Assembly (NCBI GenBank): GCA_951813535.1
Contig: OX638345.1
Coordinates: forward strand, 2,539,158-2,603,157
Source of the DNA: an uncultured Dehalococcoidia bacterium
GTDB taxonomy: Bacteria; Chloroflexota; Dehalococcoidia; Lucifugimonadales; UBA3495
Reading direction: 5' to 3'
DNA: 64,000 nt
A program made the position numbers and the translations under genes. Positions 17,536 through 47,011 of this stretch are shown here, one piece after another (the first letter of the stretch is position 1; each line of letters starts with the position of its first letter). Under the pieces are notes generated by a model. It saw only the letters and a list, made by a program, of their open reading frames with translations. It did no database searches and had not been told where the DNA came from.

Positions 17536-18027
17536 CTACTGGCTGCGCAACCGGGCGCGCTCGCGTCCCTCTATGAAATGGACCGCCTCGTCCGGGCTGA
17601 CACGGCCGACCGGACCGCTGGCGTACATCGATCCCAGCACGGTGCCGCCGCGACCGAGTAGCAACTCGGTGGGTTGAATGTACCCGCCACGGTCGTCGGA
17701 CCACCAGGAACCGAGCACATCCGCCTGCTCACGGGTGACCCCGTAGGCCATAGGGTAAGTGACACCCGATTTCGTGGCCATTTCCTGCACGGTTTCCCTG
17801 GGCTCCACGCTGGCGCCGACGATGGATAGACCCTTCTCGGCGAGAGCGTCTTGTTGGGACTGCCACGCGGCCAACTGCCGCGAGCAGTATGGTCACCACA
17901 CACCGCGATAAAACAGCACCGCGAGGTAGCGGGACGACATATCGCCGGGCAGGGTCAATGTCCCGCCGTCGATGAGATCCAGAGCCAGTTCGGGCAGGCG
18001 GTCGCCCTGTTGAAGTTTTTCAGTCAT
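17536..18027 (-). CDS. peroxiredoxin-like selenoprotein (AhpC/TSA family, UxxC)
   Basis: Read from the ATG at 18027, a 163-residue thioredoxin-fold protein is continuous except for one UGA at codon 45. The surrounding sequence is FYRGVW-UGA-PYCSRQLAAW, the AhpC/Prx-like signature FYRGxWCPYC with the first catalytic Cys replaced by UGA; the second Cys is residue 48. Family homology continues unbroken on both sides in the same frame, so this is a selenocysteine codon, not a pseudogene. Expected role: thiol peroxidase in the cytoplasm. A hairpin fitting a bacterial SECIS lies just after the UGA. Its start overlaps the end of the PaREP1-like gene by 8 bases, suggesting translational coupling. Automated annotation would split or truncate it. 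Confidence 0.85.
17860..17895 (-). promoter_or_regulatory. candidate bacterial SECIS element after UGA codon 45
   Basis: Reading minus from the UGA (17895-17893): five unpaired bases, CTGC (17887-17884) with GCAG (17863-17860), then CGCGGC (17882-17877) with GCCGCG (17871-17866). The five-base apical loop is AGTTG. The loop starts 17 bases after the UGA with G in its second position, within the published bacterial SECIS spacing and loop rules. Confidence 0.65.
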
Positions 18028-46569: not shown

Positions 46570-46685
46570 CGAGCAACGATTGGCGGTTCGCCCTGCTCCG
46601 GGGGTGGCGTTGCGCGGCCGGCACGATTGCCCTATCATCCGGCTCAACGGCAACAGCCACGACGTCAACGCAAGGGAGGGAACCC

Positions 46686-46955
46686 ATGGCTCAGAGGCCC
46701 GACGTAAACCGGATGGAAATTGAAATTATTTATTGCTGGGATTGAGGGCACGCTGGACGCGCGGCCTGGATGGCCAGCGAAGCACTGACCCGCACCGGCG
46801 ACAACATATCGACGTTCAAACTCACGCCCGGCGAACACGGCAAGTTTGACATTCTGATCGACGGTGAGTTGGTTGGCGAGCATAAACATACTCCCGACGC
46901 CCACCTGTTCCCGGACCTGCAGGACCTGATGGCCGCAATCAACAACCGAATCTAG
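46686..46955 (+). CDS. SelW-like (Rdx family) selenoprotein
   Basis: From the ATG at 46686, preceded at five bases by AGGGAGGG, the frame runs 89 codons with a single internal UGA at codon 20 (46743-46745). The context is EIIYCWD-UGA-GHAGRAAW, the Rdx/SelW CxxU motif with Cys at 17 and UGA at 20. The rest matches the thioredoxin-like Rdx fold: KLTPGEHGKFDILIDGELVG, then LFPDLQDLMAAI. A conventional reading would yield a 19-residue stub or start at an internal ATG and lose the redox site. A hairpin fitting a SECIS follows the UGA. Expected role: cytoplasmic thiol/selenol redox protein. Confidence 0.85.
46743..46779 (+). promoter_or_regulatory. candidate bacterial SECIS element after UGA codon 20
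   Basis: After the UGA, CGCT (46751-46754) pairs with AGCG (46776-46779) and GGCC (46763-46766) with GGCC (46772-46775) around loop TGGAT, with an eight-base bulge on the left. An alternative is a continuous CGCTGG/CCAGCG stem (46751-46756 with 46774-46779). The inner loop starts 22 bases after the UGA with G in its second position. Confidence 0.55.
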
Positions 46956-46971
46956 CTCCATTGACAGTCCC

Positions 46972-47011
46972 CGCCCGGGTTTCAGGTTGCCGCCCGAACC
47001 CCGGGCGTTTT
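46972..47011 (+). terminator. rho-independent terminator of the SelW-like gene
   Basis: CGCCCGGG (46972-46979) and CCCGGGCG (47000-47007) form a perfect 8-bp stem followed by TTTTGG, 17 bases after the stop codon of the SelW-like gene and ahead of the convergent DUF503 gene. Confidence 0.75.

Follow-up and report, generated by a model that had tools for sequence, protein, structure and literature searches.

Among the prokaryotic selenoproteins recorded in marine surveys, those of the SelW-like type, which carry a CxxU motif, are the most abundant family (PMC1088965, PMC2398784), with 48 genes in the Sargasso Sea set (PMC1088965) and 427 in the GOS set (PMC2398784). A 2026 inventory also predicts SelW-like proteins with high confidence (PMC13188914), and for SelW of Campylobacter jejuni (CJnc60) read-through has been shown by Ribo-seq and proteomics (PMC11955535). 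The present study describes a gene of this type in a stretch of 64,000 nucleotides (the window) from a SAR202/Dehalococcoidia relative. It is very probable, from sequence comparison, that this gene encodes a SelW-like selenoprotein in which UGA is read as selenocysteine (Sec). The window gene is an additional member of an already known family and its substance is ordinary rather than new, because SelW-like CxxU proteins are abundant at sea and read-through in C. jejuni is proven. The surprise implied in the earlier note on this DNA is not warranted, since such CxxU proteins were already the commonest prokaryotic selenoproteins in marine surveys. Compared with the prokaryotic SelW-like family (PF10262/TIGR02174), the window gene has the same Rdx domain, the same CxxU with UGA at the second Cys, a bacterial SECIS (bSECIS) right after the UGA and a marine setting. 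Nothing fundamental differs; here the family occurs in SAR202-type Chloroflexota, with three UGA paralogues in one genome. The finding does not change the view of how selenocysteine is encoded.

The gene lies on the plus strand at 46686-46955 and comprises 89 codons including one Sec codon, from ATG at 46686 to the stop TAG at 46953-46955. Read through the UGA at 46743-46745, the frame translates as MAQRPDVNRMEIEIIYCWD-U-GHAGRAAWMASEALTRTGDNISTFKLTPGEHGKFDILIDGELVGEHKHTPDAHLFPDLQDLMAAINNRI, with the putative Sec as residue 20 in C17-W-D-U20. The ATG is preceded by the ribosome-binding sequence gggagggaaccc (46674-46685), which contains GGGAGGG, and most genus orthologues have a similar purine-rich GGAGG-type sequence 5' of their ATG. 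Both the strong ribosome-binding site and the CxxU site in an Rdx frame proposed in the earlier note were thus borne out, the latter as C-W-D-U in a read-through product scoring above the Pfam Rdx cut-off. As for the terminator proposed to follow the stop, a hairpin with TTTT, CGCCCGAACCCCGGGCG-TTTT, lies 3' of the TAG at 46991-47007 on the plus strand; this intrinsic-terminator-like element is a pattern match only, with 0.5 sites expected by chance. Gene order is conserved in the relatives' loci compared, running Fe-S/CCG protein, hydrolase, selW, DUF503, rex and atp. With rex and an Fe-S protein gene nearby, selW may stand in a redox setting, though this neighbourhood does not by itself imply a link.

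The read-through product scored 50.6 bits against Pfam Rdx (PF10262; cut-off 22.6) and 37 bits against TIGR02174 (cut-off 34.2), above threshold in both cases, and 33.8 bits against the Campylobacter equivalog SelTWH_Campy NF041051, below its cut-off of 88. The C. jejuni protein, likewise a small SelW read through UGA, is therefore distant in sequence by this profile. Alignment with members of the SelW family had been proposed as a check, and it places C17 and U20 on the CxxC of Cys-type Rdx proteins: U20 aligns with the invariant second Cys in Cys-type relatives as well as in solved structures, and C17 and position 20 are invariant in all 23 aligned sequences. An AlphaFold2 model built with 23 homologues as input has a mean pLDDT of 90.6 and consists around the motif of a strand (residues 10-17) followed by a helix (23-40). 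When the model was used in a fold search of the PDB, the top matches were the SelW-related structures 2FA8, 2OKA, 2OBK, 2OJL, 2P0G and 3DEX, followed by thioredoxins and mouse SelW. The Cys-type Rdx structures 2FA8, 2OKA, 2OBK, 2P0G and 3DEX share the same fold (TM 0.72-0.78 by query length), with C17/U20 on their CxxC; they have Cys where the window protein would have Sec. Mouse selenoprotein W (2NPB) shares the thioredoxin-like fold and CxxU, at 16% identity and a TM of 0.63. Mammalian selenoprotein W has a eukaryotic SECIS in the 3' UTR, whereas in the window gene the predicted SECIS is located inside the coding sequence. By HMM, sequence and modelled fold, the product is a predicted member of the Rdx/SelW family.

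The UGA is kept in all 20 subfamily homologues examined, and the UGA-bearing gene was found at 14 and 16 loci in two sets of relatives whose genomes are partly shared. The earlier note had regarded an ordinary stop in close relatives, with no conservation downstream, as a refutation. Instead, the frame runs on past the UGA at 58-97% identity both in members of the genus and in about 10 homologues further away, and among 10 genus orthologues dN/dS is 0.017 upstream of the UGA and 0.044 downstream, which indicates strong purifying selection on both sides. No Cys orthologue within the exact subfamily was found among 60 relatives and 301 phylum genomes searched with the protein, matches below about 45% identity belonging to other Rdx subfamilies. 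An orthologue was not found in 4 of 13 other genus members, so that the gene seems to be dispensable in some members of the lineage. In one SAR202-type homologue (L060, JADFKI010000011.1) the frame is lost some 13 codons past the UGA by an apparent frameshift, possibly an assembly error.

The absence of Sec machinery had likewise been named as grounds for refutation. The host genome, a single contig of 4.38 Mb, contains all of its parts: SelA (542 bits), SelB (354.8 bits), SelD (370 bits, carrying its own in-frame UGA) and a tRNA-Sec (66.4 bits, over the Rfam cut-off) to which ARAGORN assigns the anticodon tca (UCA). In a control set of 14 genomes, E. coli was the only one in which SelA exceeded the cut-off. 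We infer that Sec is actually inserted in the host organism. At the UGA, the ribosome would receive Sec-tRNA(Sec) from SelB bound to a hairpin at 46760-46779; SelA would produce this Sec-tRNA(Sec) out of seryl-tRNA, using selenophosphate supplied by SelD, and translation would proceed past the UGA to the TAG. In the protein, the selenol(ate) of U20 would act as the reactive nucleophile attacking an oxidised substrate, with C17 as the resolving thiol for the selenenylsulfide in CxxU. A thiol-disulfide or peroxide redox cycle might follow, with low-molecular-weight thiols or thioredoxin as reductant; by analogy with the family, we consider the chances of this particular cycle to be roughly even.

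The putative bacterial SECIS hairpin (46760-46779, plus strand) is made up of 4 bp (GGCC/GGCC), a one-base bulge and 3 bp. Its apical loop UGGAU (46767-46771) has G at loop positions 2 and 3, and 21 nt separate it from the UGA. The hairpin and the G in second loop position were therefore correctly recognised in the earlier note, but the placement was slightly off, at 22 nt. Published bSECIS constraints are a loop of 3-9 nt, a stem of 4-16 bp, G in the first two loop positions, a distance of 16-37 nt from the UGA and an MFE of -7.5 or lower (PMC13188914). The window hairpin agrees with them, having a 5-nt loop, 7 bp plus one bulge, G at the second position, 21 nt and, for the isolated hairpin, an MFE of -10.8 kcal/mol. 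When the 58 nt beginning at the UGA were folded, their energy was no better than that of shuffled sequences (z 0.10), for which reason single-sequence folding was dropped as proof of a SECIS. On the alignments, what raises the hairpin signal above chance is comparative evidence, not single-sequence stability.

This comparative evidence also bears on the alternative that the selenoprotein is real and the hairpin only reflects conservation of the peptide RAAWMA. The Ala codons by themselves do account for two of the four inner pairs, and the loop UGGAU consists of the W and M codons. Against this, synonymous codon differences within the genus fall to 18% of comparable pairs in the 15 codons after the UGA, compared with 43% before it and 45% in the 15 codons that come next. 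Apart from one change, all 10 genus sequences share identical codons from +4 to +12 (nine codons), whereas neighbouring codons on both sides differ freely. A point on the other side is L067, a genus copy whose stem contains a U-C mismatch. Among 25 distinct orthologue and paralogue sequences, the covariation score of the stem was 0.349 as compared to at most 0.094 in slid controls, and standard pairs occupied 86% of cells as compared to 27-47%. Two Ala codons that stand four codons apart pair through their third positions, and this pair occurs in four types (C-G 11, U-A 5, G-C 4, A-U 3, unpaired 2). The second-best pair links an Ala third position to that of a Met (G) or Ile (A) codon and shifts from C-G to U-A. 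The protein sequence does not dictate such covarying third-position pairs. The hairpin is also lost more often in Cys copies: in either of two registers it can form in 38 of 41 Sec copies versus 4 of 10 Cys copies, where Fisher p 0.0008 is a guide only, given the relatedness of the sequences and the fact that the second register was introduced once the data had been seen. If only the first register is counted, the figures are 28 of 41 and 1 of 10. A by-product of the peptide is accordingly considered very improbable. The shifted register is seen in two SelW paralogues of the host genome (G000) with CVPU (L097, G000:C1:38800-40000; L098, G000:C1:3063300-3064700), whose hairpins read GCCA-CGUGGC/CGUGGA-UGGC with the loop CGUGGC or CGUGGA.

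The remaining explanations dispute the selenoprotein reading itself. An in-frame ATG at 46770 could give rise to a pair of products, one a short peptide that stops at the UGA and the other a restarted form of 61 residues. Such a restart form would lose strand 1 of the predicted fold together with its CxxU site; the two parts are conserved as a single domain and the Cys-type homologues are single proteins, which makes the arrangement very unlikely. A reassigned code, with UGA as a sense codon that specifies some other residue such as Trp or Gly, would leave an identical open frame at the selW gene taken by itself. It can hardly be reconciled with the rest of the window, where UGA is an ordinary stop ending atpD, atpG, rex and HNH genes in the normal way, so that the code is not reassigned; in addition, the UGA stands at a redox Cys position and not at a Trp or Gly, and SelA and SelB of the host are without UGA. 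Equally negligible is the loss of what was once a Cys-type Rdx gene through a genuine stop mutation, which the single base between UGA and UGC or UGU would permit and which is opposed by the identical UGA in 20/20 homologues, the dN/dS of about 0.04 past the UGA and the conserved gene order.

A SelW-like selenoprotein thus remains the preferred reading, and its distribution was followed among relatives. An Rdx match was found in 101 of 118 genomes of the order, and nearly all of the matches listed carry one TGA. Ten genomes had neither SelA, at the threshold applied, nor a SelB match above the cut-off, and six of them are at least 89% complete (G065, G077, G080, G091, G102 and G106). None of these six has a UGA copy: G065, G080 and G091 have no Rdx, and G077, G102 and G106 have Cys copies only. 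A protein tree, weakly resolved with 88 columns, calls for three changes between Sec and Cys, and well-supported branches force two of these; in the wider clade around the window gene Sec is present in all 20 tree rows. Exchange between Cys and Sec can be regarded as demonstrated for other Rdx subfamilies only, because no Cys orthologue was found in the exact subfamily. Cys forms within Rdx subfamilies that otherwise have UGA were observed at four loci (L018, L020, L022, L028); the genomes of L018 and L022 are without SelA and SelB, and that of L020 has both. The orthologues, the three paralogues and the Cys forms from relatives that lack Sec machinery together make a clean natural series for the study of Sec/Cys exchange and of bSECIS evolution. 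In routine annotation, genes of this kind are either truncated at their UGA or left out altogether, so that a conserved redox protein near the rex and ATP synthase genes would be missed in SAR202 genomes.

The named relatives that the protein retrieved are Dehalococcoidia/Chloroflexota MAGs, some of them labelled SAR202 cluster, and one of these relatives is bin87 from the study of the sponge Aplysina aerophoba. That the window organism itself is sponge-dwelling is at most a guess based on these relatives. Work on sponge symbionts had already noted SelA and SelB together in the majority of symbiont bins (PMC5649159). No paper joining SAR202 and selenoproteins was found in a literature search that covered few of the subscription journals. 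Published selenoproteome maxima are 57 and 63 (PMC13188914). The bacteria richest in selenoproteins are described as being for the most part anaerobes. In our judgement it is an evenly balanced proposition that the SAR202-type Chloroflexota form a marine lineage rich in selenoproteins and mostly not recognised as such, with at least 12 per genome here and with SelW expanded into paralogues on two different hairpin registers behind the UGA.

The suggestion of the earlier note that two UGA-at-redox-site genes within 64 kb point to a larger selenoproteome was supported. The second gene encodes an AhpC-TSA/peroxiredoxin-like selenoprotein candidate on the minus strand (17536-18027) with W-U-P-Y-C and the UGA at 17893-17895, and 16 nt past the UGA it has a bSECIS-like hairpin, CGCGGC-AGTTG-GCCGCG. 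A naive scan of the window for all UGA read-through frames near Cys returned dozens of chance frames, and homology is therefore required; by eye only the SelW and AhpC-TSA frames were gene-like, and both were confirmed by Pfam. In the host genome, UGA genes comprise 3 of 3 Rdx, 7 of 12 AhpC-TSA matches, 1 of 23 CMD matches and SelD, with one UGA each; the seven AhpC-TSA genes are peroxiredoxin/TlpA-like. The AhpC-TSA and CMD genes have it at UxxC, TSGU or CxxU, and it falls at the redox position in each redox-family member examined. Judged by homology, selenoprotein candidates in the host genome number at least 12 and belong to four families, and the window carries two of the candidates; the count is a lower bound as named families only were searched and a conserved SECIS was tested on the window selW alone. 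Thioredoxin (PF00085) has no UGA copies in the host genome, and GRDB/PrdB gave a partial match only, without UGA.

Several of these candidates deserve individual mention. Six more UGA-bearing genes of the AhpC-TSA fold occur in the host genome (L099-L103, G000), with FTSGU, WUPHC (twice), YCUVNC, WUPEC and WUPVC, the last two being neighbours. A CMD/AhpD-like gene (L104, G000:C1:2884600-2885900) has C-R-Y-U and, 17 nt past the UGA, a 7-bp hairpin with a GTT loop. The selenium donor enzyme SelD is itself a selenoprotein candidate, and its gene (L107, G000:C1:1104500-1108500) has the in-frame UGA in HCAGUAAK, followed by an 8-bp hairpin.
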